64,000 nucleotides of DNA, taken from Phycicoccus sp. M110.8. GTDB lineage: Bacteria; Actinomycetota; Actinomycetes; Actinomycetales; Dermatophilaceae. The stretch covers positions 1 through 64,000 of the forward strand of contig NZ_JAWDIC010000005.1 of assembly GCF_032464895.1 (NCBI RefSeq), given 5' to 3'. Both the position numbers and the translations under genes were made by a program. Positions 3,440 through 61,897 of the stretch are shown here, piece after piece (within the stretch, counting starts at the first letter, position 1; every line of letters begins with the position of its first letter). The notes beneath the pieces were generated by a model that saw nothing but the letters and a program-made list of their open reading frames with translations, was not told where the DNA came from and searched no databases.

Positions 3440-4242
3440 CCGGCTCCGCCCGGCTCGACGTCGAGCTCGTCCGCCGTGGGTTGGCCCGCTCGCGCGGGCA
3501 CGCCCGCAGCCTCGTCGAGGACGGCCTCGTCACGGTCGACGGCCAGCGGGCGACCAAGCCGTCGGCCCCGACCACCGAGGGCCAGCAGGTCGACGTGCGG
3601 GCCGAGGGCCCGCGCTGGGTCGGCCGCGCGGCATACAAGCTGGTCGGTGCGCTCGAGGAGTTCGGGCCACGCGGGCTGGAGGTGCAGGGGCGTCGCTGCC
3701 TCGACGTGGGGGCGTCGACCGGCGGGTTCACGCAGGTGCTGCTGCACCACGGCGCCGCCCACGTCGTCGCGCTCGACGTCGGCCACGACCAGCTGGTGCC
3801 CGAGGTGGCCGGCGACCCGCGGGTGACCGAACGCTCCGGCACCACCGTCCGGGGGTTGTCCCCCGACGACATCGGGGGACCGGTCGACGTCCTCGTGGCG
3901 GACCTGAGCTTCATCTCGCTGACCCTCGTCCTGCCCGAGCTCCGGTCGCTCCTTCGCGACGACGGGGACGCGGTGGTGCTGGTGAAGCCCCAGTTCGAGG
4001 TGGGGCGCAGCCGCCTGGGCAAGGGCGGGATCGTCCGCGCGCAGGGCGACCGTGCCTGGGCGGTGACCGACGTCGCGCGGGCCGCGATCGAGGCCGGCCT
4101 GCACCCCAAGGGCCTCGCCGCCAGCCCGGTCGTGGGCACGGAGGGTAACGCCGAGTACCTCCTGTGGCTGACCCCCCGCGCTACGGAGTCGATGGGATGG
4201 CAGGCTCTGGTGAGGGCCGCCGACGAGGTGAGCGCCCCGTGA
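3436..4242 (+). CDS. tlyA: TlyA: 16S/23S rRNA (cytidine-2'-O)-methyltransferase
   Basis: 268 aa, the usual family length. An N-terminal S4 RNA-binding domain (about 4-62) precedes an FtsJ-like Rossmann methyltransferase with AYKLVGAL, the SAM loop DVGASTGGF (near residue 90), DLSFISL and VKPQFEVG carrying the K-D-K catalytic set. TlyA methylates 16S C1409 and 23S C1920; its loss gives capreomycin resistance in M. tuberculosis. Start GTG 3436 overlaps the previous stop by 4 bases; the much longer in-frame reading upstream is an out-of-frame shadow of the histone-like gene. The neighbouring nadK and recN match the canonical actinobacterial order. Confidence 0.95.
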   Translation: MTGSARLDVELVRRGLARSRGHARSLVEDGLVTVDGQRATKPSAPTTEGQQVDVRAEGPRWVGRAAYKLVGALEEFGPRGLEVQGRRCLDVGASTGGFTQVLLHHGAAHVVALDVGHDQLVPEVAGDPRVTERSGTTVRGLSPDDIGGPVDVLVADLSFISLTLVLPELRSLLRDDGDAVVLVKPQFEVGRSRLGKGGIVRAQGDRAWAVTDVARAAIEAGLHPKGLAASPVVGTEGNAEYLLWLTPRATESMGWQALVRAADEVSAP

Positions 4243-4258
4243 GCGCGAAGGGAGCCCC

Positions 4259-5278
4259 GTGAGCACCGGAGACAACCGCAGGATCCTGCTGGTCGCCCAC
4301 CCGCGGCGGCAGGAGGCCACGGCCGTCGCCCTCGGGGTGGTCGACCGCCTGCACGACGCGGGCATCGGCGTGGTCATGGCCCGCGAGGAGGCCGACGCGC
4401 TCGGGCTCTCCTCGCACCACGGCGTCACCGTCGCCGAGGGCGGCAACCCTGCGCGCGGCTGCGAGCTCGTCTGCGTCCTCGGCGGCGACGGGACCATCCT
4501 GCGCGGGGCCGAGGTCTCGCGCGGCAGCGGTGCGCCGCTCCTCGGCGTGAACCTCGGGCACGTCGGCTTCCTCGCCGAGGCCGAGCGCGAGGACATCTCC
4601 GCCACCGTGGAGCACATCGTGCGACGCGCCTACACCGTCGAGGAACGGATGACCCTCGACGTGACCGCCCACGTCGACGGCACCCCGGTCTACAGCAGCT
4701 GGGCACTCAACGAGGTCACCGTCGAGAAGGCGAACCGCGAGCGGATGCTCGAGATCGTCGCCGAGATCGACGGCCGCCCGCTCACGACCTGGGGCTGCGA
4801 CGGCGTCGTCGTCGCGACGCCGACCGGCTCCACGGCATACGCGTTCTCCGCCGGGGGGCCGGTGGTGTGGCCGGACGTCGAGGCGCTCCTGCTGGTGCCG
4901 ATCAGCGCGCACGCGCTCTTCGCCCGACCCCTCGTCGTCGGGCCGAACTCCCACCTGGCGCTCGAGGTGGTCCAGGACACCCTCGGCACCGGTGCCTTGT
5001 GGTGCGACGGGCGCCGCGCGGTGGACCTGCCGCCGGGCGCGCGCATCGAGGCCGTCCGCTCGGCCACCCCGGTGCGTCTGGCGCGCCTGAGCACCTCGCC
5101 GTTCACCGACCGGCTCGTGGCCAAGTTCGACCTGTCCATCCACGGCTGGCGCGGCGAGGCGCGACGCGAGGCCCGACGGAGCAAGGAGAAGGGGACCGGG
5201 GGGGCGGGAGGAAGCGTGCCGCCCGTGGGCTCCGCCTCGTCGGTGCCGACCGGAGCCGCGACGCCCCCTCGCGCGTGA
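4259..5278 (+). CDS. nadK: NAD kinase
   Basis: 339 aa. Phosphorylates NAD to NADP with ATP or polyphosphate. The GGDGT motif is at residues ~75-79, NEVTVEK and the Gly-rich TPTGSTAYAFSAGGP block follow, and the C-terminal ISAHALFARPLV strand is intact. Beyond the conserved core lies a ~45-residue low-complexity basic then Gly/Pro-rich tail not needed by the fold. The end of the gene lies inside a 35-bp direct repeat (5260-5342), so the tail may be a recent extension. GTG start 16 nt after tlyA. Confidence 0.95.
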   Translation: MSTGDNRRILLVAHPRRQEATAVALGVVDRLHDAGIGVVMAREEADALGLSSHHGVTVAEGGNPARGCELVCVLGGDGTILRGAEVSRGSGAPLLGVNLGHVGFLAEAEREDISATVEHIVRRAYTVEERMTLDVTAHVDGTPVYSSWALNEVTVEKANRERMLEIVAEIDGRPLTTWGCDGVVVATPTGSTAYAFSAGGPVVWPDVEALLLVPISAHALFARPLVVGPNSHLALEVVQDTLGTGALWCDGRRAVDLPPGARIEAVRSATPVRLARLSTSPFTDRLVAKFDLSIHGWRGEARREARRSKEKGTGGAGGSVPPVGSASSVPTGAATPPRA

Positions 5279-5386: not shown

Positions 5387-7105
5387 GTGCTCCAGGAACT
5401 GCGGATCCAGCGACTCGGCGTCATCGACGACGCCGTGCTGGACCTGCACCCCGGCCTCAACGTCGTCACGGGTGAGACCGGTGCCGGCAAGACCATGGTC
5501 GTGACCGGCCTCGGGCTGCTGCTCGGGGCGCGCTCCGACGCCGGCCTCGTGCGGTCCGGCGAGGCCAACGCGGTCGTCGAGGGGCTCGTCGACGTGCCCG
5601 TGGACCACCCGGCGGCCGTGCGTGCCGCCGAGGCCGGGGCCGATGTGTCCGACGGGCTGGTGCTGGTCCGCTCGGTGAGCGCCGAGGGCCGGTCCCGCGC
5701 GCACGTGGGCGGCCGCAGCGCCCCTGTGGGTGTCCTGGCCGAGGTCGGGGAGCACCTCGTGGCCGTGCACGGCCAGGCCGACCAGTGGCGGCTGCGCCAG
5801 AGCGACCAGCACCGGGCGGTGCTCGACACCTTCGGCGGGGCCGCCGTGCGCGAGGCCGCGCAGGCGTACACCACCGTCTACGACGAGCACGAGGCCGCCG
5901 TGCGCGAGCTCGCCGAGCTGCGGCAGCAGGGGCGCGAGCGCGCGCAGGAGATCGAGGTCCTCGAGCACGGCCTCGCCCAGCTCGAGCAGCTCGACCCGCA
6001 GCCCGGGGAGGACGCCGACCTGCGCGTCGAGGACGAACGCCTCAGCCACGCGGAGGGCCTGCGCACCGCGTCCGCCCAGGCCCTGGTGCACCTCGCCGGG
6101 GACGAGGAGTATGCCGCCGAGCCCGTGCCGAACGCGATGGCCGTCGTCGCCGCGGCGCGCCAGGCGCTGGCGGGTGAGGTCGAGCACGACCCCGCCCTGC
6201 GCGAGCTCGACCGCCGCCTCGCCGAGGTGGGCTACCTCGTGGGCGACATCGCCGCCGACCTCAGCTCCTACGTGACCGACGTCGACGTCGACCCGGGCCG
6301 CCTGGCGTTCGTCCAGCAGCGCCGGGCCGACCTGACCGCCCTCACCCGCAAGTACGGCGACACCATTGACGACGTGCTCGGGTGGGGCCGCGCCGCCGCC
6401 AAGCGACTGGACACCCTGCTGGGCTCGGACTCCCGGATCGAGGAGCTCGAGCAGCTGGTCGACGAGCTCGCGGCCCGCCGCGACACGGCGGCGGCCGCCC
6501 TCACGGCAGCCCGCACCGAGGCGGCCGCGGCCCTCGCCGAGGCGGTGACCGCCGAGCTCGCCCACCTGGCCATGGGCTCGGCCACGATCGAGGTCCGGGT
6601 GAGTCCGCGCGCTGCCGGACCGGCCCGCCACGGCGCCGACGACGTCGAGGTGATGCTCGCTGCCAACCCCGGCGCGCCCGCCCGTACCGTCGCCAAGGCC
6701 GCCTCCGGTGGTGAGCTGTCCCGGGTCATGCTCGCGCTCGAGGTCGTCACCGGCGCGTCCGGCGGGGTCGACGTCCCGACCTTCGTCTTCGACGAGGTCG
6801 ACGCCGGGGTCGGCGGCGCGGCGGCCCTCGACGTCGGGGCGCGGCTCGCCGCGCTCGCCCGCCACGCGCAGGTGGTGGTGGTGACGCACCTGCCGCAGGT
6901 CGCGGCATACGCCGACCGGCACCTCGTCGTGCGCAAGGCCAACGACGGGCACATCACCTCCAGCGGCGTGCACGCCGTCGAGGGCGAGGAGCGGCTGCGC
7001 GAGCTGGCCCGGATGATGGCCGGCGTCGACACCGGGACCTCCCTCGAGCACGCGCGCGAGCTCGTCGAGCAGACCACCCTGCGACGGGCCGCAGCGACGA
7101 GCTGA
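5387..7105 (+). CDS. recN: DNA repair protein RecN
   Basis: 572 aa SMC-like ATPase of recombinational double-strand-break repair. Walker A GETGAGKT is at residues 29-36. A long central coiled-coil region spans about 150-370. The ABC signature ASGGELSRVML (near 440) and Walker B FVFDEVDAGVGG (near 465) complete the head domain. GAGAGG at 5373-5378 precedes the GTG start. It directly follows nadK, as in most Actinobacteria. Confidence 0.96.
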   Translation: MLQELRIQRLGVIDDAVLDLHPGLNVVTGETGAGKTMVVTGLGLLLGARSDAGLVRSGEANAVVEGLVDVPVDHPAAVRAAEAGADVSDGLVLVRSVSAEGRSRAHVGGRSAPVGVLAEVGEHLVAVHGQADQWRLRQSDQHRAVLDTFGGAAVREAAQAYTTVYDEHEAAVRELAELRQQGRERAQEIEVLEHGLAQLEQLDPQPGEDADLRVEDERLSHAEGLRTASAQALVHLAGDEEYAAEPVPNAMAVVAAARQALAGEVEHDPALRELDRRLAEVGYLVGDIAADLSSYVTDVDVDPGRLAFVQQRRADLTALTRKYGDTIDDVLGWGRAAAKRLDTLLGSDSRIEELEQLVDELAARRDTAAAALTAARTEAAAALAEAVTAELAHLAMGSATIEVRVSPRAAGPARHGADDVEVMLAANPGAPARTVAKAASGGELSRVMLALEVVTGASGGVDVPTFVFDEVDAGVGGAAALDVGARLAALARHAQVVVVTHLPQVAAYADRHLVVRKANDGHITSSGVHAVEGEERLRELARMMAGVDTGTSLEHARELVEQTTLRRAAATS

Positions 7106-9318: not shown

Positions 9319-10149
9319 GTGCGCGCCCCCGTGCCCGGACTGGTCCCCGGCCTCGTCGCCGGCGTCACCGGGTCCCTCGCCCTGCGGGCGCTGCGGGCCG
9401 CGCCGCCCGGCGGCGCAGCCCGGTGGGAGCGGACCAACCACGCCGGCCGCCCGGTGACCCTGCTCGAGGGTCCGGCGTATGCCGTGGGGGCCGCGACCGG
9501 CGCCGCCCTCCTCGGCGGCGGGCCGGCGCCGGTGCTCGCCACGACGACTGCGGCCGCCCTCGGCGCGCTCGACGACCTCGCCGGCGACTCCAGCAGCAAG
9601 GGCCTGCGCGGCCACCTCGGCGCCCTCGCCCGCGGTGAGGTCACGACTGGGGCGGTCAAGGTGCTGGGGTTGGCCCTGACCGGGCTCGCCACGGCCGCGC
9701 TGGTGGACCGCGGCGAGCGGGGCCCCCGGGGTGGGGACGGGCCGAGCGCGCTCGACACGCTCGTGGGGGGAGCGGTCGTGGCCGGCACGGCGAACCTGTT
9801 CAACCTGCTCGACCTGCGACCCGGTCGCGCGCTCAAGGCAACCCTGGCGCTCGGCGCGGTGGCAGCGACGCGCCCCCGGTCGGTGGTGGCCGGTGCCTCG
9901 GCCGCCGGGGCTGCCGTCGGCCTGCTGCGCCCGGACCTCGCAGGGGAGTCGATGCTGGGCGACACCGGCGCCAACGCCGCCGGGGCGCTGCTGGGCACCG
10001 CCATCGTGCAGGGGGCCGGCCGCCGCGGGCGCTGGACCGCCCTGGCGGTGCTCGTCGGGCTCACGCTCGCCTCGGAGAAGGTGTCGTTCACGAAGGTCAT
10101 CGAGTCGACGCCGGTGCTGCGCGAGCTGGACGCCCTGGGGCGCCCGTGA
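9319..10149 (+). CDS. MraY/WecA-like membrane protein (glycosyl-4 transferase family paralogue)
   Basis: 276 aa polytopic membrane protein. It keeps the polyprenyl-phosphate sugar-1-P transferase signatures: DDLAGDSSSKGLRGH near 86-100 (MraY-type DD...KGL..H), NLFNLLDLRPGRALK near 158 (N.NLLD), and GDTGANAAG near 213. It is shorter than MraY (usually ~360 aa) and probably lacks some helices. Placement between steB and murJ, with a 4-base overlap to murJ, suggests a lipid-linked envelope precursor role. Substrate unknown; the canonical mraY should lie in the dcw cluster elsewhere. Confidence 0.75.
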   Translation: MRAPVPGLVPGLVAGVTGSLALRALRAAPPGGAARWERTNHAGRPVTLLEGPAYAVGAATGAALLGGGPAPVLATTTAAALGALDDLAGDSSSKGLRGHLGALARGEVTTGAVKVLGLALTGLATAALVDRGERGPRGGDGPSALDTLVGGAVVAGTANLFNLLDLRPGRALKATLALGAVAATRPRSVVAGASAAGAAVGLLRPDLAGESMLGDTGANAAGALLGTAIVQGAGRRGRWTALAVLVGLTLASEKVSFTKVIESTPVLRELDALGRP

Positions 10150-11821
10150 CCGCGACGTCCGTGGGGACCTCGATCGCCCGAGCGGCCGGCATCATCGCCG
10201 TCGCCACGCTGCTCAGCCGCCTGGCCGGGTTCGCCCGGACGCTGGTGTTCTCCCAGAACGTCGGCACGACCAGCGTCGGTGACGTCTACCAGACCATCAA
10301 CCTGGTCCCCAACGTCGTGTACGAGGTCGCCGCCGGGGGAGTGCTGGCCGCCGTCGCCGTGCCGCTCATCGCCGGCCAGCTCGGGCTCGGCAAGGAGCGG
10401 GAGGCCGACGAGACCGCCTCGGCACTGCTGTCGTGGGCCGTGGTGGTCCTGCTGCCCCTCAGCCTGCTGCTCGCCCTCGTCTCCCCGTGGCTGAGTCGAG
10501 CCCTGCTGGGGGCCGGCGCCTCCGACCCCGAGGCGACCCTGGGCCGGCACATGCTCGTGCTCTTCGCACCCCAGGTCCTGCTCTACGGCATCGGCATCGT
10601 GCTCAGCGGCGTCCTGCAGGCCCGGCGCCGGTTCCTCGCCGCGGCGCTCGCGCCGCTGCTGTCCAGCCTCGTCGTCATCGCGTCGTACCTCACGTACGGC
10701 CAGCTGGTCGACCGGTCGGCGACCACCGCGGCCACCGTGTCAGACGGCGCGGTGTGGGTGCTCGCGGGCGGCACCACCCTGGGCGTGGTGGTGCTGAGCC
10801 TGCCGCTGCTCGTGCCGACCCTGCGGGCCGGTGTCCGGCTGCGCCCCACCCTGCGCTTCCCCGACGGCGCGGCGCGGCGCGCGGGGTCGCTCGCCGGTGC
10901 CGGTGTGGTGGCGCTGCTCGCCCAGCAGGGGGCGGTGCTGGCCACCCTCTGGGTCACCCACCACCGCACCGACGCCGTCGGCGCCGTGAACGTCTACTCC
11001 TACGTCCAGGCCGTCTACCTGCTGCCGTATGCCGTGCTCGCCGTGCCGATCGCGACCTCGGCGTTCCCTGCGCTGGCCCACACCGCTGCCGCCGAGTCGG
11101 CCGACGCCGAGCTCCTGCCCGGCACCGCCGCGCGCGACACCCTCGCCCGCAGCCTGCGCGGGATCCTGCTGCTGGTGTCCGGCGCCGCCGCGGTGCTCAT
11201 GGCGGTCGCCCAGCCGGTCGGGGAGTTCTTCCGCTCGATCGACCCCGGCGCGCACGGGGCCACGCCAGGCACGCGGGGCTCGGGCGCGGAGGCGCTGGCC
11301 GCCCTCCCCGGCGCGCTCTCGGCATACGCACCGGGGGTGGTGGGCTTCGCGGTGGCTGCCCTGCTCACCCGTGCCCTGTACGTGCGCGGCCGCCCGCTCT
11401 ACGCCGCCCTTGCGGTCGCTGCAGGCTGGGCCGTGACGGCCCTGGGGCCGATCGCCCTGCTGCCGGAGGGCTCCAGCGCAGCGTCGACCCTCGGGGTGCT
11501 GGGTGTCTCCTCGACGGTCGGCATGACGCTGTCCGCCGCCGTCCTGGCGCTGCTCGTGCGGCAGGCGTGGGGCCCGGAGGCACTGGCCGGCAGCGGCAGG
11601 ACGCTGGGCGCGGCGCTCGTGGGCGTTGCGGTCGGGTTCGGGGTCGGTGACACCGCGGCACGGTCGATGCAGCCGCAGGGCGTGGTGTCCGCGCTCGCCG
11701 CCGGTGTGGCCGTGGCTCTGCTCACCGGCCTGTCCTACCTGTTCGTGATGGCGGTGGGGGACCGGCGCTCGATGCAGGCCCTGCGCGAGCGGGGCCGCCG
11801 GCGCCGCCGCGGAGCGGCCGC

Positions 11822-11825: not shown

Positions 11826-14652
<2,827 letters not shown>

Positions 14653-14656
14653 CGCG

Positions 14657-15340
14657 GTGGGGGACCAGCCCGTCGAGCAGCCCGCCGAACGGCATGCCGG
14701 CACGCACGCCGGCCAGCTCGCCGACCGGTTCGAGGGCCGTCCCGTCGTCTCCACCGAGGTCGCGATGCACGGCCTCGTGTGGGACGTCGTGCGCGACCGG
14801 GTCGACCTCGGTGAGGCCGGGGAGGTCACGCGCGAGTACGTGCGCCACCCCGGCGCCGTCGCCGTCGCCGCGCTCGACGAGCAGGGCCGGATCTGCCTGA
14901 TCCAGCAGTACCGGCACCCGGTGCGCGCCTTCGAGTGGGAGATCCCTGCGGGCCTGCTCGACGTCGACGGCGAGCCGCCGCACCGTGCCGCGGCCCGCGA
15001 GCTGCACGAGGAGGCCGACCTCACCGCCGGGACGTGGAACGTCCTCGCCGACTACGTCAGCTCCCCGGGTGGCCTGGACGAGGGGCTGCGCATCTTCCTC
15101 GCGCGGGACCTCGCCGAGGTGCCGCACGGCGAGCGGCACGACCGCGACGGCGAGGAGCTGGGTATGCCGGTGCGCTGGGTGCTGCTGGAGGAGGTCCGCG
15201 ACGCGGTCCTCGCCGGGCGGGTGCACAACGCGACCCTGGCCATCGCAGCCCTGGCCGCACTCGCGGCCCGCGACCTCGACTGGTCGACCCTGCGCCCAGC
15301 CGACGCGCCCTGGCCCGGGCACCCGCACCTGCGCGGCTGA
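14657..15340 (+). CDS. Nudix hydrolase, ADP-ribose pyrophosphatase type
   Basis: 227 aa. The Nudix box (about residues 98-120, ending AARELHEEADL) matches GX5EX7REUXEEXGU apart from the last position. An N-terminal beta domain precedes it, as in dimeric ADP-ribose pyrophosphatases; it would cleave ADP-ribose to AMP and ribose 5-phosphate. GTG start 4 nt after pyrG. Rv1700 occupies the same place in M. tuberculosis; after it the conserved order (xerD, parA/scpA) is lost here. Confidence 0.88.
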   Translation: MGDQPVEQPAERHAGTHAGQLADRFEGRPVVSTEVAMHGLVWDVVRDRVDLGEAGEVTREYVRHPGAVAVAALDEQGRICLIQQYRHPVRAFEWEIPAGLLDVDGEPPHRAAARELHEEADLTAGTWNVLADYVSSPGGLDEGLRIFLARDLAEVPHGERHDRDGEELGMPVRWVLLEEVRDAVLAGRVHNATLAIAALAALAARDLDWSTLRPADAPWPGHPHLRG

Positions 15341-16120: not shown

Positions 16121-16575
16121 GCGTCTTCGGGGCGGCGGTTCCCGCCCCGCGCGAGTGCCCCTGTGGCAGCGGACAGGCCTACGTCACCTGCTGCGCGCCG
16201 ATGCACCACGGCGAGCGCGAGGCCACGACCGCCGTGCAGCTCATGCGCTCGCGGTATGCCGCGTACGTCGTCGGGGACGAGGCGTACCTCCTGCGGACGT
16301 GGCACCCCCGCACCCGGCCGGCCGACCTCGGGCTCGGCCACGCGGGGACGCCGCGCTGGCTCGGTCTCAGCATCCTGGCCACGGCGGACGGCAACGAGGG
16401 GGACTCGGCCGGGGAGGTCGAGTTCGAGGCCCGGCACGTGGGTGGGGTGATGCGCGAGCGCAGCGCCTTCAGCCGGCGGGCGGGCCACTGGGTCTACGTC
16501 GACGGGACGGTGGAGGAGGCCGACGGCCTCACCACCCCGGACGAGGCGACGGACGCGCGGGTCGAGCGGCGCTGA
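16117..16575 (+). CDS. YchJ/UPF0225 family SEC-C motif protein
   Basis: 152 aa. The zinc-binding SEC-C motif [13 protein letters not shown] is at about residues 14-26, followed by the UPF0225 domain ([12 protein letters not shown], then a beta-rich C-terminal half). Family function is unknown; SEC-C otherwise mediates SecA-SecB and ribosome contacts. GTG start overlaps the VOC stop by 4 bases. Confidence 0.85.
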
Positions 16576-16759: not shown

Positions 16760-18589
16760 GTGCTCCGCACCCATGAGGCCGGCACCCTGCGTGCCGACCA
16801 CTCCGGCCAGACCGTCACGCTCACGGGCTGGGTGGCCCGGCGGCGCGATCACGGCGGAGTGGCCTTCCTCGACCTGCGCGACGCCAGCGGCGTCGCCCAG
16901 GTGGTCGCGCGTGACGAGGTCCTCGCCGAGGGCGGCGCGCACGACCTGCGCAACGAGTACTGCGTCCGGGTCGTCGGCGAGGTGCGCACCCGCCCGGCGG
17001 GCAACGCCAACCCCGACCTGCCCACGGGCGAGATCGAGGTCCTGGCCGGCACCATCGAGGTGCTCAACCCCAGCGCCCCGCTGCCGTTCCAGATCGACGA
17101 GCGCGTGACGGTCGGCGAGGAGGCGCGGCTCAAGCACCGCTACCTCGACCTGCGCCGCCCCGGTGCGTCGTCCGCGGGTTCGGCGATCCGACTGCGCTCC
17201 AAGGTCAACGCCGCGGCCCGCAAGGTCCTCGGCGAGCGCGACTTCGTTGAGATCGAGACCCCGACGCTGACGCGCTCGACGCCCGAGGGTGCCCGCGACT
17301 TCCTCGTGCCGGCCCGCCTCGCGCCCGGTTCGTGGTACGCCCTGCCGCAGAGCCCGCAGCTGTTCAAGCAGCTGCTCATGGTCGCCGGGATGGAGCGGTA
17401 CTACCAGATCGCCCGCTGCTACCGCGACGAGGACTTCCGCGCCGACCGCCAGCCGGAGTTCACCCAGCTCGACATCGAGATGTCCTTCGTCGAGCAGGAC
17501 GACGTGCTCGAGCTCGGCGAGGCAGTGGTCAAGGAGGTCTGGCAGCTCATCGGTGTCGACCTGTCCACGCCCTTCGAGCGCATGACGTATGCCGAGGCGA
17601 TGGCCCGGTTCGGCTCGGACAAGCCCGACCTGCGGTTCGGCAACGAGCTCGTCGACTGCACCGAGTACTTCAAGGACACCCCGTTCCGGGTCTTCCAGGC
17701 CGAGTACGTCGGTGCGGTCGTCATGCCCGGCGGTGCGTCGCAGCCGCGCAAGCAGCTCGACGCCTGGCAGGACTGGGCCAAGAGCCGCGGTGCGAGGGGT
17801 CTCGCGTACGTCCTCGTCCAGGAGGACGGCACCCTCGGCGGCCCGGTGGCCAAGAACCTCACCGACGCCGAGCGCGACGGCCTCGCCGCGCACGTGGGTG
17901 CGCAGCCGGGCGACTGCGTCTTCTTCGGTGCGGGCTCGGCGCGCTCGAGCCGGGCACTGCTCGGCGCTGCCCGCCTCGAGATCGGCCGTCGCTGCGGCCT
18001 CATCGACGAGGACGCGTGGTCGTTCCTCTGGGTCGTCGACGCCCCGCTGTTCGAGCCGTCGTCGGAGGCCGTCGCCGCCGGTGACGTCGCCGTCGGTGCC
18101 GGCGCGTGGACCGCGGTGCACCACGCGTTCACCTCGCCGAAGAAGGAGTTCGAGGACACCTTCGACACCGACCCCGGGCCGGCCCTCGCATACGCGTACG
18201 ACATGGTCTGCAACGGCAACGAGATCGGCGGTGGCTCGATCCGTATCCACCGCCGCGACGTGCAGGAGCGGGTCTTCAAGGTCATGGGCCTGTCGCAGGA
18301 GGACGCCCAGGAGAAGTTCGGCTTCCTGCTCGACGCCTTCCAGTACGGCGCCCCGCCGCACGGCGGCATCGCCTTCGGCTGGGACCGCATCGTCTCGTTG
18401 CTGGCGCACACCGAGTCGATCCGCGACGTCATCGCGTTCCCGAAGTCCGGTGGCGGCTACGACCCGCTGACCGCTGCGCCGGCGCCGATCACGGCCGAGC
18501 AGCGCAAGGAGGCCGGGGTCGACGCCAAGCCGGCCGACAAGGCCCCCGCGCCCCAGGGCGCCGACGAGGTCAACCCGAAGCAGAGCTGA
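16760..18589 (+). CDS. aspS: Aspartyl-tRNA synthetase
   Basis: 609 aa class II synthetase of the long bacterial AspRS type. An OB-fold anticodon-binding domain (1-110) precedes the catalytic core with motif 2 ([25 protein letters not shown]), the GAD insertion (about 300-420) and motif 3 ([12 protein letters not shown]). GAAGGA at 16748-16753 sets the GTG start. The ~35 C-terminal residues after motif 3 form a Lys/Ala/Pro-rich tail. Whether it is discriminating or also charges tRNA-Asn cannot be decided here. Confidence 0.97.
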
Positions 18590-19044
18590 TGGACCGCGCG
18601 CCCGGCGACGTGCTCGTGCACCTGCGCCGGGCGCGCGACCACGCCGACCGCCACTACACCGAGCCGATCGGGCTCGAGGAGCTGGCGGCGGTCGCCGGGC
18701 TGAGCAAGTACCACTTCCTGCGGCTGTTCCGGGCGGCCTACGGCCGCACGCCAGCGGCATACCTCAGCGAACGGCGGGTCGAGCGCGCCCAGGACCTGCT
18801 GCGCGCCACCAACCTCACGGTGACCGAGGTGTGCCACGCCGTGGGGTTCAGCAGCCTCGGCTCGTTCAGCAGCCGGTTCCGGGAGGTGGTGGGGGAGAGC
18901 CCCAGCGAGTTCCAGCGCCGGTATGCCGCGGGCGCACCCCACATCCCCGGGTGCTACGTCTTCATGTGGGGCCTGGTCGAGCGGAACGCCGCCCCGGCGA
19001 GCTCCGCAATCGAGGAGAAGCAGGCCGGGCGGAGCCACTCCTAG
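18589..19044 (+). CDS. AraC-family transcriptional regulator
   Basis: 151 aa, essentially a lone AraC/XylS DNA-binding domain: two helix-turn-helix motifs between residues ~20 and 105 (LAAVAGLSKYHFLRLFRAAYG and VCHAVGFSSLGSFSSRFREVVGESPSEFQRR). No separate ligand domain precedes it. Its ATG shares one base with the aspS stop, so it is translationally coupled to aspS. A VOC gene follows after 9 nt; short AraC plus VOC pairs are common in Actinobacteria and suggest that it regulates that gene. Confidence 0.88.
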   Translation: MDRAPGDVLVHLRRARDHADRHYTEPIGLEELAAVAGLSKYHFLRLFRAAYGRTPAAYLSERRVERAQDLLRATNLTVTEVCHAVGFSSLGSFSSRFREVVGESPSEFQRRYAAGAPHIPGCYVFMWGLVERNAAPASSAIEEKQAGRSHS

Positions 19045-21274: not shown

Positions 21275-23493
21275 TCCGTGATCCCGAACCGGGCGTGGAG
21301 GCGCTTCAGCCGCGCGGGCGCCCACCAGTTCCAGTCGCCGAGCAGCGTCATCGTCGCCGGCACCAGCAGCATGCGCACCAGGGTCGCGTCGATGGCCACG
21401 GCCGTCGCCAGTCCGACGCCGGTCTCCTTGATGACCAGGAGCTTGCCCGCCGCGAACCCGGAGAACACGATGACGACGAGCAGGGCCGCCGAGGTGATGA
21501 TCCGCCCCGACCGCTGCAGGCCGACGACCACGGCGTCGTCGTTGGAGTAGCCCCGCTCGTGCAGCTCGACGATCCGTGACAGCAGGAACACCTCGTAGTC
21601 CATCGACAGCCCGAACCCGAAGGCCAGGATGAGCAGCGGGATCGTGGACTCGATCGCCCCGGCGGACGAGAAGGACAGCAGCCCCTCGAGGTTCCCCCGC
21701 TGGAAGACCAGGACGAGCACGCCGAGCGACGCTCCCAGCGACACGACGTTGAGGAGCAACGCCTTCACGGGGATCACGACGGACCCGGTCATGAGGAAGA
21801 GCAGCACCAGCGTCGCGAGGGCGACGAGCGCGAAGGCGTACGGCGCCCGGGCGAGCATCGAGTCGGTGAAGTCGGTGAGTCCGCTGGCCTGCCCGACCAC
21901 CCAGGTCGGGAAGCCGGGGGTGTCCTCGCGCAGCTGGGTGGTCAGCGCCCGGGCGGGATCGTCCAGCGCCGCGCCCGGGACGTCGAGGCTCACGGTCGCC
22001 AGCCCGTCGCCGATGTCCTTGACGTCGCGCACGCGGCCACCGGCAGGCAGGGGTATGCCGGCGGCATACCGCTGCACCTGCGCCAGCGGGGCCCGGGCGA
22101 CGACCACAACGTCGGCCCCGCCGAGCTGCGGGTAGTCCTTCGCCAGCCCCTCGAAGAACTGGCGCTGGCTGCTGCTGGTCGGCAGGAGCTGCTCACCGGA
22201 GGAGGTCAGCCGCAGGTCGAACGCGGGCAGCGCGAGGGCGACGAGTGCCGCGAGGACCACGGCGATGATCGGGATGGGGCGACCGTGCACCCACTGGGCG
22301 AGCCGGGAGAACACTCCGTGCTCGGGGGCGGTCTCGGTGCCACGGCGCAGCAGCCGGCGCGCGCCGAGGACGCACAGCGACGGGATGAGGGTCAGCGCGA
22401 CGAGCATGGCGATGACGACCACGGACATGCCGGCCACGCCGATGCCCTTCATGATCGGGGCCTCGAAGACCAGCAGGCCGCCGAGCGAGATCGCGACGGT
22501 CAGCCCCGAGAAGACGACCGTCCGGCCGGCGGAGTCGACCGTGCGGGCCGCGGCCGACCGGATCATCTCGCCGGGGATCTGCGCAGCGGGCATGCCCTGG
22601 GCCCGCGCCCGCAGCTCCTCGCGGAACCGGCTCACGACGAGCAACCCGTAGTCGATGCACAGCCCCAGCCCGAGCACCGTGACGACGTTGACCGCGGTGG
22701 TGTCGAGGTCGATGAGGTAGGAGAAGCCGAGCAGCGAGGCGAGCGCCCCCGCGATCGACGCGACCGCCCCGGCGATCGGCATCCCGGCGGCGACGAAGCC
22801 GCCGAAGACGATGATCATCACGACGAAGCTGACCGGCAGGGCGATGCCCTCGCCCGTGCGCAGGTCGACCTCGAGCTGGTCGGTGATGGCGGTGATGAGG
22901 TCCGACAGGCCGGCCGCCGTGACCCGTGCGGCGGGTGCGGCGGAACGCACGGGGGCGAACGCGTCGCGGACGTCCGCCTCGAGCTGCTTCTGCTGCGCCT
23001 TGCCCGGGTCTCCGGAGAAGGTCACGACCGTGACGAACCCGCGCCCCGACGGCGAGCCGCCGGCCAGCAGCGGCGCGGCGGCCGGCCCCGTGGGCCCGCC
23101 CGGGACGACGTACGGGGAGGCGACCGAGGCCACGCCGGGAAGCCCCTTGATGTCGGCAGCGGTGCGGGTGGCGGCCTGCGCCAGCCCGGGGTCGGTGACA
23201 TCGACGTCGTCGACCCGGACCGTGTAGGTCGTCAGCTGCGACTGGCCCTGCTTGACCAGCAGGTCGCGTCCGTCGGAGTTCTGCCCCGACACCGAGGGCT
23301 CGCCGGTGCTGAGCCGGGCGAACAGCCGCTCGTTGCCGAAGGCGCCGAGCGCCGTGGCGAACCCGAGCACGACGAGCACGACCCAGGTGAGCACGACCGT
23401 CTTCGGGCGGTGGGCCAGGGCGGACCCGAGCCGGGACAGCAGGGAGCGGGACCGGTCGGGGTGCAGTGTGCTGGGGGAGGGCGCGTCGGGCAC
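21271..23493 (-). CDS. MMPL-family transporter (RND-type exporter)
   Basis: 740 aa with about 12 predicted helices in two repeats. Each half has one helix, a large extracytoplasmic domain (about 60-200 and 400-540), then five helices. The central part has the [17 protein letters not shown] motif (first repeat) and [15 protein letters not shown] (second), with proton-relay Asp-Tyr pairs as in MmpL and YdfJ. Exports lipids or drugs in relatives. GTG start at 23493, back to back with the rarA promoter; the upstream in-frame reading overlaps rarA antisense. Coupled to the GNAT gene downstream. Confidence 0.9.
22053..22069. repeat. Inverted pair of the over-represented octamer GTATGCCG
   Basis: GTATGCCG at 22053-22060 and CGGCATAC at 22062-22069, one base apart, inside the MMPL gene. 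It is the densest example of an octamer that recurs 41 times between 3629 and 61379 (see findings). Confidence 0.9.
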
Positions 23494-36813: not shown

Positions 36814-38455
<1,642 letters not shown>

Positions 38456-40912: not shown

Positions 40913-41030
40913 GTCCGCCGATCCCCGCACCGAACTTCCGGGACTGCCGCGCGCGCCGAGCCACGCGGCATACCGAGACCGGCGGCGGCGCCCACCGGCC
41001 CGCGCCCACCGACGAGAAAGCGACTTCCCC

Positions 41031-42030: not shown

Positions 42031-42600
42031 GTGACTGGAGATGCCGCGGCCGGGCGCAGCGCGATCCGGTATGCCGTGCGGCCGGCGACCTCCGCCGACC
42101 TGCTGCAGCTGGCTGCGGTGGAGTCCGCCGCGGACCGGGTGTTCGACCCGGTCGTGGACACCAGCCTGTGGGGCGAGCCGCCCAGGGGGGAGGCCCGCGC
42201 CGCCGAGCCGGGGTTCCTGCTCGTCGCGGGTGATCCGGTGGTCGCGGGTGACCCGGTCCTCGGGTTCGCGCACGTGCTGCTGCTCGACGGGGACGGCGAC
42301 GGCCCGGGTGGGGCACGCGCGCACCTCGAGCAGCTGGCGGTCCACCCGGACCACGGCCGCCGGGGGATCGGCAGCGCCCTCGTGGAGGAGGTGTGCGCGC
42401 AGGTCAGGGACAGGGGTTTCGACCGCGTCACGCTGCGCACCTTCGCCGACATCCCGTGGAACGGACCCTTCTACGCCCGGCTCGGGTTCGTCGAGCTGGT
42501 GCCTGACCCCGCGTGGATGGCGCCGATGCTGCAGGCCGAGGCCCGGATCGGTCTCCCGCAGGCCGGCCGGCGCGTCGCCATGGTGCGCCACCTGGGCTGA
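42031..42600 (+). CDS. GNAT-family N-acetyltransferase
   Basis: 189 aa single GNAT domain. Acetyl-CoA binding at QLAVHPDHGRRGIGSALVEEV, then GFDRVTLRTFADIPWNGPFYARLGF. A 12-bp duplication (VAGDPVVAGDPVLG) is visible before the core. Starts 24 nt after nusB without a strong ribosome-binding site. Substrate unknown. Confidence 0.82.
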   Translation: MTGDAAAGRSAIRYAVRPATSADLLQLAAVESAADRVFDPVVDTSLWGEPPRGEARAAEPGFLLVAGDPVVAGDPVLGFAHVLLLDGDGDGPGGARAHLEQLAVHPDHGRRGIGSALVEEVCAQVRDRGFDRVTLRTFADIPWNGPFYARLGFVELVPDPAWMAPMLQAEARIGLPQAGRRVAMVRHLG

Positions 42601-43807: not shown

Positions 43808-44683
43808 TCATCCCCGTCGCACCCGGAACACCTCGGCGACCGCCGCCATGTCGTCCCCACCGTGCCCCTGCTCCGTGGCGCGGGCGTATGCCGCCGCCAG
43901 CGCCTCCAGGACGCGCGTGTCCACCCCCGCCGAGGTCGCCGCCTCGACCATCAGCCCGACGTCCTTGGAGACGTTGTCGACGGCGAACGCGGGGGAGTAC
44001 GCACGCTCGAGCACCAGACCCCCCTTGAGCTGGGCGTAAGGGGTGTCGGTGGGGCCGCCGCCGATCGCCTCGAGGAACAGCCGCGGGTCGACGCCGAGGC
44101 CCTCGGCCAGGGCGAGCGCCTGCCCGACACCGGCGTTGATCGTCGCCACCCACGAGTTGACCGCGAGCTTGAGCCGGCTCGCCGCGCCGGGTACGTCCCC
44201 GACCCACATGGTGCGTGATCCGACGGCGTCGAGGACGGGCTGAGCGCGGTCGGCGAGCGAGCGGTCGCCGGAGACCAGGACGACCAGGGCGCCCTTCTCG
44301 GCCGGGTCCTTCGTCCCCAGCACCGGGGCGTCGAGGAAGGCGATGCCCCGCTCGACGGCGAGGGACGCGAGGGCCTCGGTGCCCGCAACGCCGACGGTCG
44401 ACGCCTGCAGCCAGACCGTGTCGGCCCCGAAGGCGTCCGCGCACTGCTCGACCGTCGACCGGACCGCCTCGTGGTCGTAGAGCATGGTGACCACGACGTC
44501 GGCGCCGTCGACGGCCCCGACGGCGGTGTCGCACACGGTGGCACCGGCCTCCGCGAGCGGCTCGGCCTTCTCCCGGCTGCGGTTCCACACGCGGACGGGC
44601 AGGTCGGCCCGGCGCAGGCTGCGGGCCATCCCTGCGCCCATGATGCCGGTGCCCAGCACGGCGACGGTCGGGGTGCTCGTCAT
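43808..44683 (-). CDS. Beta-hydroxyacid dehydrogenase (3-hydroxyisobutyrate dehydrogenase family)
   Basis: 291 aa. N-terminal NAD(P) Rossmann domain with GTGIMGAGMARSLRRADLPVRVWNR, substrate loop near LQASTVGVAG, catalytic Lys in SRLKLAVNSWVA, then an all-helical C-terminal domain. NRSREKAEPL at strand 2 suggests NADP preference. CAGGAGAG precedes ATG 44683. The substrate (hydroxyisobutyrate, tartronate semialdehyde, or an imine) cannot be told. Confidence 0.88.
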   Translation of the reverse strand: MTSTPTVAVLGTGIMGAGMARSLRRADLPVRVWNRSREKAEPLAEAGATVCDTAVGAVDGADVVVTMLYDHEAVRSTVEQCADAFGADTVWLQASTVGVAGTEALASLAVERGIAFLDAPVLGTKDPAEKGALVVLVSGDRSLADRAQPVLDAVGSRTMWVGDVPGAASRLKLAVNSWVATINAGVGQALALAEGLGVDPRLFLEAIGGGPTDTPYAQLKGGLVLERAYSPAFAVDNVSKDVGLMVEAATSAGVDTRVLEALAAAYARATEQGHGGDDMAAVAEVFRVRRG

Positions 44684-47866: not shown

Positions 47867-48522
47867 CGCGACTGCAGGCCGTCGGGATCATGCTCGTGGC
47901 CCTCGGCCTGGTCTACGCCCTGCTGTATGCCGCGTGGCTGCGCAAGCGCCGCCGCAACGCCTCCGCGGTCATCGCCGTCGAGCGCCACCGCACCGAGGAC
48001 GCGGCGCCGGCCGCCCCCGCCCTGGACGACCAGCGCGGGCACAGCCTGGTCGTGGAGGGCACCTACATCAGCACGACGACGGCGGAGAGCCGGCTCGAGC
48101 GGGTCGCCGTGGAGGGCCTGGGCAACCGGTCCCGGGCGACGCTCACCGTCAACCGGGGCAACCCCGACCAGCTGGTCCGGATCGACCGCCAGGGCGAGTC
48201 GACGGTCGTCGTGCCCGGCAGCCGGCTGGTGAGCGTGCGCCGCGACCGCGGCATGGCGGGCAAGTTCATCGGGGCCAACCGCCTCCTCGTCCTGCAGTGG
48301 CGCGCCGAGGACGGCGCCGTCTACGAGACCGGCTTCCTCCCGCGCTACCGCGCCGACGTCGACCGGGTCGAGTCCGCGCTGTGGTGGCACAGCAGCGACG
48401 CCGCCGAGACGCAGCCTGCCGACCCCGCGGTCGACACAGCGACAGACACCGACACAGACACCCACACAGACACCGACCAGGGGCAGGAGCCCACGGCACC
48501 CGAAGGAGGGACCACCCGATGA
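47863..48522 (+). CDS. Membrane-anchored PH-like protein of the pyr operon
   Basis: 219 aa. One N-terminal helix (about 4-24), a KRRR stop-transfer, then a ~130-residue beta-rich domain seen in the PH-like protein that sits between pyrC and carA in Mycobacterium (Rv1382) and Streptomyces. The last ~35 residues are an acidic Asp/Thr repeat encoded by a GACACA-type microsatellite (48433-48478). Function unknown despite strict conservation of place. Overlaps pyrC and carA by 4 bases each. Confidence 0.82.
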
Positions 48523-49721: not shown

Positions 49722-53019
<3,298 letters not shown>

Positions 53020-56233: not shown

Positions 56234-56814
56234 GCGGGTCCGCTCCAGGGGACACCGACCGGGCCCACCGCCTCGTCGTCCTCGCCGGCCCCACCGCGGT
56301 CGGCAAGGGCACCGTCTCGGCATACGTCCGCGACCACTTCCCCGACGTCTGGCTGAGCGTCTCCGCCACCACCCGCCGCCCCCGCCCGGGGGAGGAGGAC
56401 GGCATCCACTACCACTTCGTCGACGCCGGCGAGTTCGCCCGGATGGACCGTGACGGCGAGCTGCTGGAGTCCGCCGTCGTGCACGGCCGGAACTCCTACG
56501 GCACGCCGCGTCGCCCGGTCGAGGACGCGCTGGCCGCGCACCGCATGGCCCTGCTCGAGATCGACCTGCAGGGCGCGCGCCAGGTGCGCCAGACGATGCC
56601 CGAGGCGCTGTTCGTCTTCCTGGCGCCCCCGAGCTGGGACGAGCTGGTGCGCCGGCTCGTCGGCCGGGGCACCGAGGACGAGGAGGAGCGCACCCGCCGG
56701 CTCGAGACGGCCAAGGTGGAGATGGCCGCCGAGAAGGAGTTCGACGTCACCATCGTCAACGACGACGTTCGTCGGGCTGCCGAAGAACTCGTATCATTGA
56801 TGCGGACCCACTGA
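56230..56814 (+). CDS. gmk: Guanylate kinase
   Basis: 194 aa. P-loop GPTAVGKGT at residues 20-28, GMP-binding [20 protein letters not shown] and the DLQGARQV motif. Phosphorylates GMP to GDP. GTG overlaps mihF by 4 bases. The last ~15 codons are unusually A+T-rich because they hold the rpoZ promoter. Confidence 0.96.
56792..56797 (+). promoter_or_regulatory. -10 box of rpoZ inside the gmk 3' end
   Basis: TATCAT within the final codons of gmk, ~60 nt before the rpoZ start. Local A+T enrichment supports it. Confidence 0.5.
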
Positions 56815-57166: not shown

Positions 57167-58456
57167 ATGGCGCGGATCGTCCTCGGTGTCAGCGGTGGCA
57201 TCGCGGCCTACAAGGCCTGCTCGCTGCTGCGCCTGCTGACCGAGTCCGGCCACGACGTCACCGTGGTGCCGACCGCGTCGGCCCTGCAGTTCGTCGGCGC
57301 CCCCACGTGGGAGGCGCTTTCGGGCAAGCCGGTCCACACCGACGTGTGGTCCGGCGTCCACGAGGTCCCGCACGTGCGCCTGGGCAAGCAGGCCGACCTC
57401 GTCGTCGTCGCCCCCGCGACCGCCGACCTGCTCGCCAAGGCCGCGCACGGGCTGGCCGGTGACCTGCTCACCAACGTGCTGCTCACCGCGCGCTGCCCCG
57501 TCGTCATGGCCCCGGCGATGCACACCGAGATGTGGGAGCACCCGGCCACACAGGCCAACGTCGAGACGCTCACCGAGCGCGGCGTGCACGTCGTCCCGCC
57601 GGCCAGCGGCCGGCTCACCGGCGCCGACACCGGCCCGGGGCGGCTCCCCGAGCCTGAGGACCTGTATGCCGTGTGCGCGCGGATTCTCCAGCACGGCCAC
57701 CCCGGCGTCGCCTCGCCCACCGGGCCCGACGCGGCCCACACCAGCCGCTCGGCGGCCACGCCGGCCGACGAGCACGGGCTCGAGGGCCGCCGGGTCGTCG
57801 TGAGCGCCGGTGGCACCCGGGAGCCGCTGGACCCCGTGCGGTTCCTCGGCAACCACAGCTCGGGCAAGCAGGGCTACGCCCTGGCCCGGGTCGCGGCGCG
57901 GCGCGGGGCCGAGGTCGTCCTCGTCGCCGCGAACAGCTCCCTGCCGGCCCCGGAGGGCGTCACCGTCGTGCCGGTGCAGACCGCCCTGGAGCTGCAGGAC
58001 GCTGTCCTCGAGGCGTCCCGCGAGGCCGACGTCGTCGTCATGGCTGCGGCGGTGGCCGACTTCCGGCCGGCCCGGTACGCCGACGCCAAGATCAAGAAGA
58101 CGCACGACCCGGCCGACCCCGACGCAGCTCCCACAATCGAGCTGGTTCGCAACCCCGACATCCTCGCCGGGCTCGTACAGGAGCGCGGCGACGACGCGAG
58201 CCCTGTGGTGGTCGGCTTCGCGGCAGAGACTGGTGACGCCCAGGGGAGCGTCCTCGACCACGGCCGGGAGAAGCTGCTCCGCAAGGGCTGCGACCTGCTC
58301 GTCGTGAACGAGGTCGGCGCCGACAAGACGTTCGGGCACGACGACAACACCGTGCACATCCTGCGCCAGGGCAGCAGCCACGTCGTCGACGCCGGGCCCG
58401 CCTCCAAGGACGAGGTGGCTGCCGCAGTCTGGGACGCCGTGCAGGAGATCCTGTAG
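57167..58456 (+). CDS. coaBC: Bifunctional phosphopantothenoylcysteine decarboxylase/synthetase
   Basis: 429 aa. CoaC flavoprotein domain (1-180: GGIAAYKACSLLRLL, catalytic His in EVPHVRLGKQADL, PAMHTEMWEHPATQ) and CoaB synthetase domain (about 205-425: SAGGTREPLDPVRFLGNHSSGK, AAAVADFRP, KIKK, LLVVNEV). Makes 4'-phosphopantetheine for CoA. The CoaC substrate flap reads GRLTGADTGPGRL, without the Cys seen in E. coli Dfp. GGGAG precedes ATG 57167. Confidence 0.95.
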   Translation: MARIVLGVSGGIAAYKACSLLRLLTESGHDVTVVPTASALQFVGAPTWEALSGKPVHTDVWSGVHEVPHVRLGKQADLVVVAPATADLLAKAAHGLAGDLLTNVLLTARCPVVMAPAMHTEMWEHPATQANVETLTERGVHVVPPASGRLTGADTGPGRLPEPEDLYAVCARILQHGHPGVASPTGPDAAHTSRSAATPADEHGLEGRRVVVSAGGTREPLDPVRFLGNHSSGKQGYALARVAARRGAEVVLVAANSSLPAPEGVTVVPVQTALELQDAVLEASREADVVVMAAAVADFRPARYADAKIKKTHDPADPDAAPTIELVRNPDILAGLVQERGDDASPVVVGFAAETGDAQGSVLDHGREKLLRKGCDLLVVNEVGADKTFGHDDNTVHILRQGSSHVVDAGPASKDEVAAAVWDAVQEIL

Positions 58457-58531: not shown

Positions 58532-59752
<1,221 letters not shown>

Positions 59753-59818: not shown

Positions 59819-59821
59819 GAC

Positions 59822-59827: not shown

Positions 59828-59833
59828 TCCGGT

Positions 59834-61897
59834 GTGTCCGAACCGGGAGCAGGGGAGCAGCTGGCGCTGATCCGCTCCGCCCTGCCCAAGGCGCCGCGCG
59901 TGCGACCCGAGCAGGAGCCCGCGGCCACCGACCCCGTCGCCGCCGTGGTCGTCGACACCGGCCTGGCACACCTCGACCGGCCGTTCGAGTACCTCGTGCC
60001 GGAGTCGATGGCGCAGACCGCCGTGCCGGGCGCGCGGGTCAAGGTCCGGTTCGCGGGCCAGGACCTCGACGGCTTCGTCGTCGAGCGCCGGGCCGAGCCC
60101 GAGCACACCGGGCGGCTGGCGCCGCTGCGGCGCGTGGTGTCGCCCGAGCCGGTGCTGACGCCGCCGCTGCTCGCCCTGTGCCGGGCCGTCGCCGGGCGCT
60201 ACGCCGGGACGCTCGGGGACGTGCTGCGCCTGGCCGTCCCGCCCCGCCACGCGGCGGCGGAGAAGGCCCTCGCCGAGCAGGCGCCCGAGCCCGACCCGTT
60301 GCCCTCGCCGCCCGACCGGGTGCCCTCGTGGAGCAGGTATGCCGGGGGGCCGGCCTTCCTCGCCCGGCTCGCCGCGGGGGAGTCGCCGGCCGCGTCCCTG
60401 CTCGCCCTTCCCGCCCGCACGCCTGACGAGGACTGGCCCACCGCCCTCGCCTTCGCGGCGGCGGCAGCCCTCGCGAGCGGTCGCGGCAGCGTCATCGTCG
60501 TGCCCGACCACCGCGACGTCCGCCGGGTCGACACCGCGCTCACCGCCGTCCTCGGCAAGGGGCGGCACGTCCGCCTGACCGCCGACCAGGGGCCGCAGGC
60601 CCGCTACACGGCGTGGCTGAAGCTGCTGCGTGGGCACGTGTCGGTCGTCGTCGGCACCCGGGCGGCCGCGTTCGCCCCGGTGCGCTCGCCGGGCCTGGTC
60701 GCGTGGTGGGACGACGGCGACGACCTGCTGGACGAGCCGCGTGCGCCGTACCCGCACGTGCGCGAGGTCCTGCTGGCCCGCGCCCGGATCGAGGGGGCGG
60801 CCGTCCTCAGCGCGGGCTTCACGCGCAGCGTGCCGGTGCAGCGCCTCGTCGAGGCCGACGAGCTGCGCACCGTGGCGGCGGCCTCGGTGCGTGGGGTCGT
60901 GCCCCGGGTCCGGGTCGCAGGCGAGGGGCTCGACGCCGAGCGGGACCCGGCTGCGTCCAGCGCCCACCTGCCGTCGGTCGCCTGGCGCACGGCCAAGGCG
61001 GCCCTGGAGTCCGGGCCGGTGCTGGTCCAGGTGCCGCGCCGGGGCTACCTGCCCTCGCTGGCCTGCCAGACCTGCCGCGCGCCCGTCCGGTGCCGCCACT
61101 GCGGCGGACCGGTGGCGCAGTCGGCACGCGGGGCCGAGCCCGCCTGCCGCTGGTGCGGCAAGGGCGTGGGCCGGTTCGAGTGCCGGGAGTGCGGGGGCCG
61201 TGAGCTGCGCTCCTCGGTCGTCGGCGCGCGGCGCACCGCCGAGGAGCTGGGCCGCGCCTTCCCCGGCGTGCCGGTCCACACGTCGGGCGCGGGCGCGGTG
61301 CTCGACACCGTGGCCGCGACGCCCGCGCTCGTCATCGCCACGCCGGGGGCCGAGCCCGTGGCCGACGGCGGGTATGCCGCCTCCCTGCTCCTCGACGCGT
61401 GGGCGTCCCTCGACCGGGCGACCCTGGACGCCGCCGAGGAGGCCCTGCGCCGGTGGCTGGGCGCGGCCGGCCTGACCCGCGGCGCCGCCGACGGCGGGCA
61501 GGTGGTGCTCTGCGGGGCACCGACGCACACGACCCTGCCGGTGGTGGAGGCGCTGGTCCGCTGGGACCCCGGCTGGTTCGCCGGTCGAGAGCTCGCCGAC
61601 CGGGCCGCCCTCCACCTGCCGCCGACGGTCGCCCTGGCCGCGATCACCGGGGAGCGCCGCGCGGTGCGTGCCACCGTCGAGCAGGCCGACCTGGCCCGGT
61701 TCGGGCTGCAGGACGTCGTGGAGCAGCTCGGTCCGCTCTCGGTCGGGCAGGACGAGGCGCGCGTGCTGCTGCGGGCACCGCTCGAGGTGGCGCCGGCCCT
61801 GGCCGAGGTGCTCGCCGACGTGCGCGCCTCGCGCAGCGCCCGCAAGGAGGCGGCCGGGGTGCAGCTCCGGATGGACCCGCCGGACCTCGCCGGGTGA
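59834..61897 (+). CDS. priA: PriA-like primosomal protein N' without ATPase motifs
   Basis: 687 aa. N-terminal 3'-DNA-binding domain (VVDTGLAHLDRPFEYLVPE onward), a helicase-like middle and the zinc-binding region with eight Cys between about residues 412 and 455. Walker A is absent: the GTGSGKT place reads ALPARTPDEDWPTA. The DEXH box place reads WWDDGDDLLDE. Actinobacterial PriA proteins are known to be degenerate in this way, so it probably works as a replication-restart scaffold, not a helicase. Start fixed by the -10 box. Confidence 0.9.
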   Translation: MSEPGAGEQLALIRSALPKAPRVRPEQEPAATDPVAAVVVDTGLAHLDRPFEYLVPESMAQTAVPGARVKVRFAGQDLDGFVVERRAEPEHTGRLAPLRRVVSPEPVLTPPLLALCRAVAGRYAGTLGDVLRLAVPPRHAAAEKALAEQAPEPDPLPSPPDRVPSWSRYAGGPAFLARLAAGESPAASLLALPARTPDEDWPTALAFAAAAALASGRGSVIVVPDHRDVRRVDTALTAVLGKGRHVRLTADQGPQARYTAWLKLLRGHVSVVVGTRAAAFAPVRSPGLVAWWDDGDDLLDEPRAPYPHVREVLLARARIEGAAVLSAGFTRSVPVQRLVEADELRTVAAASVRGVVPRVRVAGEGLDAERDPAASSAHLPSVAWRTAKAALESGPVLVQVPRRGYLPSLACQTCRAPVRCRHCGGPVAQSARGAEPACRWCGKGVGRFECRECGGRELRSSVVGARRTAEELGRAFPGVPVHTSGAGAVLDTVAATPALVIATPGAEPVADGGYAASLLLDAWASLDRATLDAAEEALRRWLGAAGLTRGAADGGQVVLCGAPTHTTLPVVEALVRWDPGWFAGRELADRAALHLPPTVALAAITGERRAVRATVEQADLARFGLQDVVEQLGPLSVGQDEARVLLRAPLEVAPALAEVLADVRASRSARKEAAGVQLRMDPPDLAG

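Follow-up and report, generated by a model that had tools for sequence, protein, structure and literature searches.

A dispersed octamer in the window and the genome

The 64,000-nucleotide stretch analysed here, from Phycicoccus sp. M110.8 (contig NZ_JAWDIC010000005.1, positions 1 to 64,000; hereafter the window), holds 64 genes called by a purpose-made codon-based caller and, dispersed among them, 41 exact copies of GTATGCCG, an asymmetric octamer that is not a palindrome. The copies span 3629 to 61379; all were located by exact word match and are numbered by position in the whole window. On the + strand they lie at 6109..6116, 9477..9484, 11027..11034, 15162..15169, 16254..16261, 17587..17594, 18921..18928, 23583..23590, 24721..24728, 26276..26283, 27747..27754, 31866..31873, 34021..34028, 37564..37571, 39623..39630, 43316..43323, 43886..43893, 47925..47932, 51228..51235, 52999..53006, 57664..57671, 60337..60344 and 61372..61379, and on the - strand at 3629..3636, 4833..4840, 6903..6910, 11320..11327, 12798..12805, 18755..18762, 24636..24643, 30078..30085, 32134..32141, 36770..36777, 38746..38753, 51798..51805, 56318..56325 and 58857..58864. 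Two further copies, at 22053..22060 (+) and 22062..22069 (-), are the arms of an intragenic inverted pair with a 9-bp stem. According to the gene calls, the copy at 40966..40973 (-) is intergenic and that at 42069..42076 (+) sits at a predicted gene start; these two of the 41 are listed as non-coding or at a gene boundary.

An earlier note on this DNA had put the number at 41 (25 on the + strand, 16 on the - strand) and far above chance, and exact counting gives the same figures. Dinucleotide shuffles of the window (n=100) contain 0.69 copies on average and three at most, and by an order-2 Markov model GTATGCCG exceeds its expected number more than any other 8-mer in this stretch (41 against 0.96). 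The excess extends to the rest of the genome, where the earlier note had proposed to look for it: the 4.12 Mb contain 2,476 copies, 1,234 on the + and 1,242 on the - strand, or about one per 1.7 kb, and the reversed word occurs 135 times (74 + 61). These whole-genome figures rest on word counts; 884 kb of the genome were read. The flanks are weakly constrained, a preceding A being avoided and a following C or T, then G, being favoured.

Most copies are coding. In 464 kb, 257 of 301 lie inside called genes, where they are read as Tyr-Ala (145), Ala-Tyr (85), Gly-Ile (19), Gly-Met-Pro (7) or otherwise (1), so that the first three frames account for 249 of the 257. The earlier note had recognized the Tyr-Ala and Ala-Tyr frames and the few Gly-Met-Pro cases; it missed the Gly-Ile frame, GGC-ATA-CC, with its 19 copies. 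Its claim that the word forces rare codons is borne out by TAT, 230 of whose 311 occurrences in 725 genes (the window plus 740 kb of contig C1) fall within GTATGCCG. The proposal that the word rather than the dipeptide is selected also stands, since synonymous-codon shuffles abolish the excess: the 64 window genes then hold 1.57 copies on average and five at most, against 38 present, and the 725 genes 14.1 on average and 21 at most, against 412. Over 438 sites GTATGCCG shows no bias towards gene ends, unlike the uptake signal sequence (USS) of Pasteurellaceae, which is described as biased in that way (PMC2346458).

The word is also conserved. In alignments with four congeners it is identical at the aligned place in 13 of 19 cases (G001), 9 of 17 (G002), 5 of 19 (G009) and 6 of 17 (G010), and in the reverse direction in 13 of 27, 9 of 15, 5 of 8 and 6 of 6, respectively; control 8-mers are conserved less often in the same four genomes (1, 3, 1 and 2 of 8). 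A bias of codon use or composition without function is refuted by the codon shuffles (14 against 412), and neither this conservation nor the behaviour of control words described below is what it would produce; we give it practically no credence.

Strand-specific spacing

Over 844 kb, same-strand copies are more evenly spaced than random placement provides, with coefficients of variation of 0.57-0.73 for the gaps against 0.96-0.99 in simulations. Relative to counts expected under uniform placement, same-strand pairs closer than about 1 kb are depleted (40 against 103), and opposite-strand pairs show no avoidance (144 against 117). At separations of 60-1,500 bp the corresponding numbers are 104 against 226 (sd 15) and 237 against 228. 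The same pattern is seen in relatives: at 60-500, 500-1,000 and 1,000-1,500 bp, observed-to-expected ratios are 0.45, 0.53 and 0.50 for same-strand and 1.81, 0.76 and 0.74 for opposite-strand pairs in 15 congener loci, and 0.70, 0.47 and 0.75 versus 1.13, 1.02 and 1.06 in 32 loci of other genera. Same-strand avoidance is not seen for four abundant control words of the source genome, and four rarer controls form too few pairs for a judgement. The arrangement of + relative to - copies is not clearly unlike that under circular shifts in the first 340 kb (p 0.05) or in C5 (p 0.69). Over the whole 740-kb stretch neighbours alternate more, with 136 same-strand neighbours against 161 under shifts (sd 7.9), and the two strands are therefore nearly, not fully, independent.

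The strands are also balanced, with 256 + and 261 - copies in 844 kb and 101 and 118 in 340 kb, where nearly every 20-kb bin is close to even. The 444 kb that were binned show no local skew, and thus neither the replichore polarity of Chi nor the skew of the FtsK-orienting polar sequences (KOPS). This balance makes an FtsK-type site, one of several roles suggested in the earlier note, unlikely; unlike KOPS, GTATGCCG is not strongly skewed towards dif. A ParB- or MatP-like site is likewise unlikely because the word is dispersed on both strands, along all 844 kb, and a methyltransferase target alone would leave the strand-specific spacing unexplained.

Twelve opposite-strand pairs in the 844 kb are close, and seven of these can fold into intergenic stems of 16-20 bp without a mismatch; five of the seven lie no more than 75 bp after the end of a + strand gene. 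USS and the DNA uptake sequence (DUS) are described as making intergenic hairpins as well (PMC7811141, PMC2397512). The four longest stretches free of GTATGCCG (10-12 kb) have 69-71% G+C against 73% overall, and one of them contains tad-type secretion-ATPase genes.

It was this strand-specific spacing that first suggested a site resembling Chi. AdnAB, a helicase-nuclease, is the actinobacterial counterpart of RecBCD and AddAB; it might degrade DNA from a double-strand end until it meets GTATGCCG in the right orientation and then switch to a recombination mode. A reader of one orientation would require each strand to have its own evenly spaced copies, and a one-sided reader thus predicts spacing that is orientation-specific with nearly independent strands, as observed. 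We compared GTATGCCG with E. coli Chi and with DUS and USS, known from Neisseriaceae and Pasteurellaceae (PMC7811141, PMC1939737, PMC3630211), and these yardsticks moved us from Chi to an uptake-like reading. By one method, enrichment over the order-2 expectation is 36-fold for GTATGCCG, 173-fold for DUS10, 49-fold for USS9 (26 and 21 for the inner 8-mers of DUS and USS) and 3-fold for Chi. Chi resembles GTATGCCG in being an asymmetric octamer whose spacing depends on orientation; unlike GTATGCCG it is skewed between strands (117:44), and its same-strand copies cluster (62 pairs against 34.9 expected). Strand polarity is itself used as a criterion in Chi prediction, and is also relaxed there (PMC8022716). 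DUS shows a weaker form of the spacing of GTATGCCG, with 61 same-strand pairs against 79.5 expected and 90 opposite-strand pairs against 86.5. The DUS and USS counts come from IMG/VR contigs, hence from pieces biased towards prophages, and were made after removal of tight inverted pairs and of loci that were near-duplicates or had a low density; the USS set (169 sites) is too small for spacing.

Words of related genera

The earlier note had called for comparison with related genera. All 11 genomes examined of the source genus (Pedococcus-like, Dermatophilaceae) are enriched for GTATGCCG, the ten congeners having 625 to 3,986 copies each. The genus has as named members Knoellia koreensis, several Phycicoccus strains and two of Pedococcus. 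Across Dermatophilaceae (158 genomes, 48 genera) the word is patchy; named loci that bear it include those of Terrabacter, Knoellia, Humibacillus, Lapillicoccus and Phycicoccus elongatus. In 22 genomes from other families of the order, 2 to 167 copies are present.

Some genera of the family use words that differ from GTATGCCG by one letter, namely GTATGNCG, GGATGCCG, GAATGCCG and GTATGCGG. This survey covered 20-104 kb from each of 30 genomes and 72 of 80 named loci, and in the stretches read GTATGNCG was found in G013 and Flexivirga, GAATGCCG in G022, GGATGCCG in G026, an Ornithinibacter bin and Nostocoides Soil756 (G011), and GTATGCGG, in dispersed copies, in G030; for several genera the sequence covered contains no such word. 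Only GGATGCCG was counted over whole genomes, the other three dialects resting on the stretches. Against 453-869 copies in 12 other genomes, GGATGCCG is clearly raised in genus g17 (3,816 and 3,838 copies), moderately in G011 (1,336) and hardly in its g2 congener G106 (949). Dialects are documented for DUS too (PMC3630211). For G030, GTATGCCG itself was rejected as a dialect, as 10 of its 13 copies in the stretches read belong to one tandem array with a spacing of about 62.6 bp (L178:17714-18284); an array of the same kind at L239:4032-4602 probably represents the same genome.

An unrelated word, CGAAGGGG, usually extended by another G, is abundant in three Janibacter loci (L229, L230 and L236). 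Genome-wide it reaches 1,746-2,201 copies in four genomes of g54 (G064, G098, G135, G150), a genus that we infer to be Janibacter, and 3,180 in G063 (g53), whereas 11 further Dermatophilaceae genomes have 90-297. The three Janibacter loci contain nine close opposite pairs of CGAAGGGG, some of them hairpin pairs, and a T run follows two of the nine. For CGAAGGGG and for the one-letter dialects, the trend towards same-strand avoidance is weak or absent.

Other over-represented words were noted in passing. In 20 kb of Pedococcus bigeumensis (G005, L017), CCGGACTGA and overlapping 9-mers occur 14 times, probably as a local repeat. In three Kineosporiaceae loci CGCCGTCC exceeds expectation about four- to seven-fold (51 against 11.6 in L246, 46 against 11.1 in L247 and 34 against 4.8 in L257) and is possibly another signal word. 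In G016 (L025 and L164), from a genus without GTATGCCG and with a single weak secretion-ATPase match, CCGGCTCC occurs 40 times against 7.3 expected.

Candidate machinery and interpretation

The source genome encodes the components that DNA uptake would call for, with comEC, comEA, dprA and tadA/B/C/E-type genes. PilM was not detected in it, nor in 34 of 36 genomes of the family; a type IVa pilus was thus rejected as the uptake pilus and the Tad pilus was considered instead. Flp (Tad) pili are reported to bind DNA in Micrococcus luteus (PMC6370729). When the identity of TadE2 to the source genome is scaled by that of TadB, three genera without the word give 0.63, 0.77 and 0.67 and seven that bear it give 0.76-0.99; the ranges overlap, the comparison is confounded and some matches are partial, so that TadE2 as a candidate receptor for GTATGCCG is only a lead. 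Next to the Tad cluster, and transcribed divergently, lies the gene for a 1,449-residue protein with FHA and FtsK/SpoIIIE domains (G000:C1:605471-609820; L150:5471-9820). In the word-rich congener G004, the ComEC (Competence) domain match is in two separate pieces (G004:C1:1517076-1517881), which reflects either a sequencing error or a broken gene.

Genes for the Chi-like alternative are present as well. AdnAB is encoded in the source genome (AdnB 2e-175 and AdnA 9e-149 against the chains of solved structures), although its being the cognate enzyme is conjecture. Of 30 genomes whose fetched loci were searched with blastp, 28 gave AdnA and 26 gave AdnB, and the gene caller may account for the misses; matches to the PDDEXK nuclease family occur in 36 of 36 genomes of the family. 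RecBCD was rejected as the reader, RecC being found neither in the source genome nor in 9 of 10 congeners. This absence counts in favour of AdnAB, as does a comparison of genera: RecC is rarer where the word or a dialect occurs (6 of 29, or 8 of 29 with half genera) than where neither does (11 of 17; Fisher 0.005 or 0.028), in a tally made by eye that leaves out two ambiguous genera of 48 and is uncorrected for phylogeny. RecC is present in all 18 Janibacter-type genomes, and counting their genera, which have a word of their own, as word-bearing weakens the association (p 0.048 or 0.11). AdnA and AdnB also occur in five genomes lacking GTATGCCG (G016, G018, G019, G020 and G023). In a partial distance test of 13 proteins, AdnA gave no signal of co-evolution (p 0.35) and AdnB a weak one (p 0.06); a further protein of that locus reached p 0.0015, a value that we ascribe to chance or confounding. 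A 2026 paper calls it unclear how AdnAB deals with a Chi-like step (PMC13309787). With E. coli Chi only 3-fold enriched, skewed, clustered and, at a ratio of 1.5, in excess for one-mismatch words, we consider a Chi-like site unlikely. The recombination hotspot suggested in the earlier note is possible, with a signature unlike that of E. coli Chi; among the candidates listed there, an uptake-type sequence fits best.

Like DUS and USS, GTATGCCG is asymmetric, present in thousands of copies on both strands without skew, frequent within genes, found in hairpin pairs and varied by dialects at the level of the family. Abundance, strand balance, dialects and hairpins thus parallel those of uptake sequences, and the genes for ComEC, ComEA, DprA and Tad are present; set against the counterpoints below, these likenesses lead us to favour GTATGCCG as a self tag akin to an uptake sequence, perhaps the first of a monoderm, a reading by analogy to which we give slightly less than an even chance. 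What was observed is that the word is abundant and conserved, is spaced by strand, has dialects and forms hairpin pairs, and that comEC, comEA, dprA and tad genes are present; binding, uptake, the receptor and the mode of accumulation are inferred. A surface DNA receptor, probably a minor Tad pilus subunit, would prefer DNA bearing GTATGCCG; ComEA and ComEC would import one strand of it; and DprA and RecA would recombine that strand into the chromosome. With kin DNA preferentially taken up, copies would build up and keep an even distribution along each strand, and a change of receptor could shift the word by one letter, as in the dialects, or replace it, as in Janibacter.

Several observations weigh against such a self tag. 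ComEC is present in 57 of 58 genomes and secretion ATPases in 48 of 48 searched, those without GTATGCCG included, and the partial distance test found no receptor for the word (ComEC p 0.13, ComEA p 0.34). Biased-uptake drive predicts an excess of one-mismatch words, and these number 633 against 639 expected; the ratio is 0.97, compared with 2.9 for DUS10 and 1.7 for USS9 (1.25 and 1.39 for the inner 8-mers of DUS and USS). Close opposite pairs do not exceed chance (12 against 9.5), unlike those of DUS (15 against about 5 after removal of anchor pairs). The avoidance between same-strand copies far exceeds that of DUS (ratio 0.39 versus 0.77) and is confined to the same strand; the lack of avoidance between strands sits poorly with the orientation-independent uptake described for USS (PMC1939737). 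The host, moreover, is an actinobacterium with Tad rather than type IVa pili. Among the literature matches listed on uptake sequences or Chi in Actinobacteria, none reports GTATGCCG, and those listed for the octamer itself deal with unrelated topics. We also know of no report of transformation in Dermatophilaceae.

The absence of a one-mismatch excess also bears on a word of the kind of the highly iterated palindrome HIP1, the classic abundant word (PMC4390886), kept by a methyltransferase or a mutational process. GTATGCCG shares with HIP1 its abundance and its repetition as a short word through coding sequence. It differs in being asymmetric and spaced by strand and in lacking the surplus of near-matches of the cyanobacterial palindrome, for which one-mismatch words are given as 1,830 against 160 expected from base composition (PMC1939737), and we judge this origin very improbable. 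About as doubtful as the Chi-like site is a strand-polar signal not yet described, such as an asymmetric nick or a mark that directs repair to one strand, read on either strand at intervals of roughly 1-3 kb. No yardstick combines strong avoidance among same-strand copies less than 1 kb apart with its absence between strands and the lack of a one-mismatch excess, and the length scale may resemble that of single-strand excision tracts; this signal has no candidate enzyme, and hairpin pairs and dialects are already covered by uptake.

Whichever way the word is read, it is possible, if somewhat short of probable, that Dermatophilaceae carry fast-changing, strand-polar words in thousands of copies, which differ by one letter between genera, are replaced in Janibacter and are read separately on each strand, and which are neither classical uptake sequences nor Chi. 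The leading forms of this proposal are a first uptake sequence in a monoderm and a first regulatory sequence of AdnAB. If AdnAB is the reader, the word would answer how this enzyme is regulated. If GTATGCCG is an uptake sequence of Actinobacteria, DNA 'mate choice' would have evolved again with different pili, and the several dialects could be used to find the receptor. On either reading, GTATGCCG and its dialects provide a ready test substrate.

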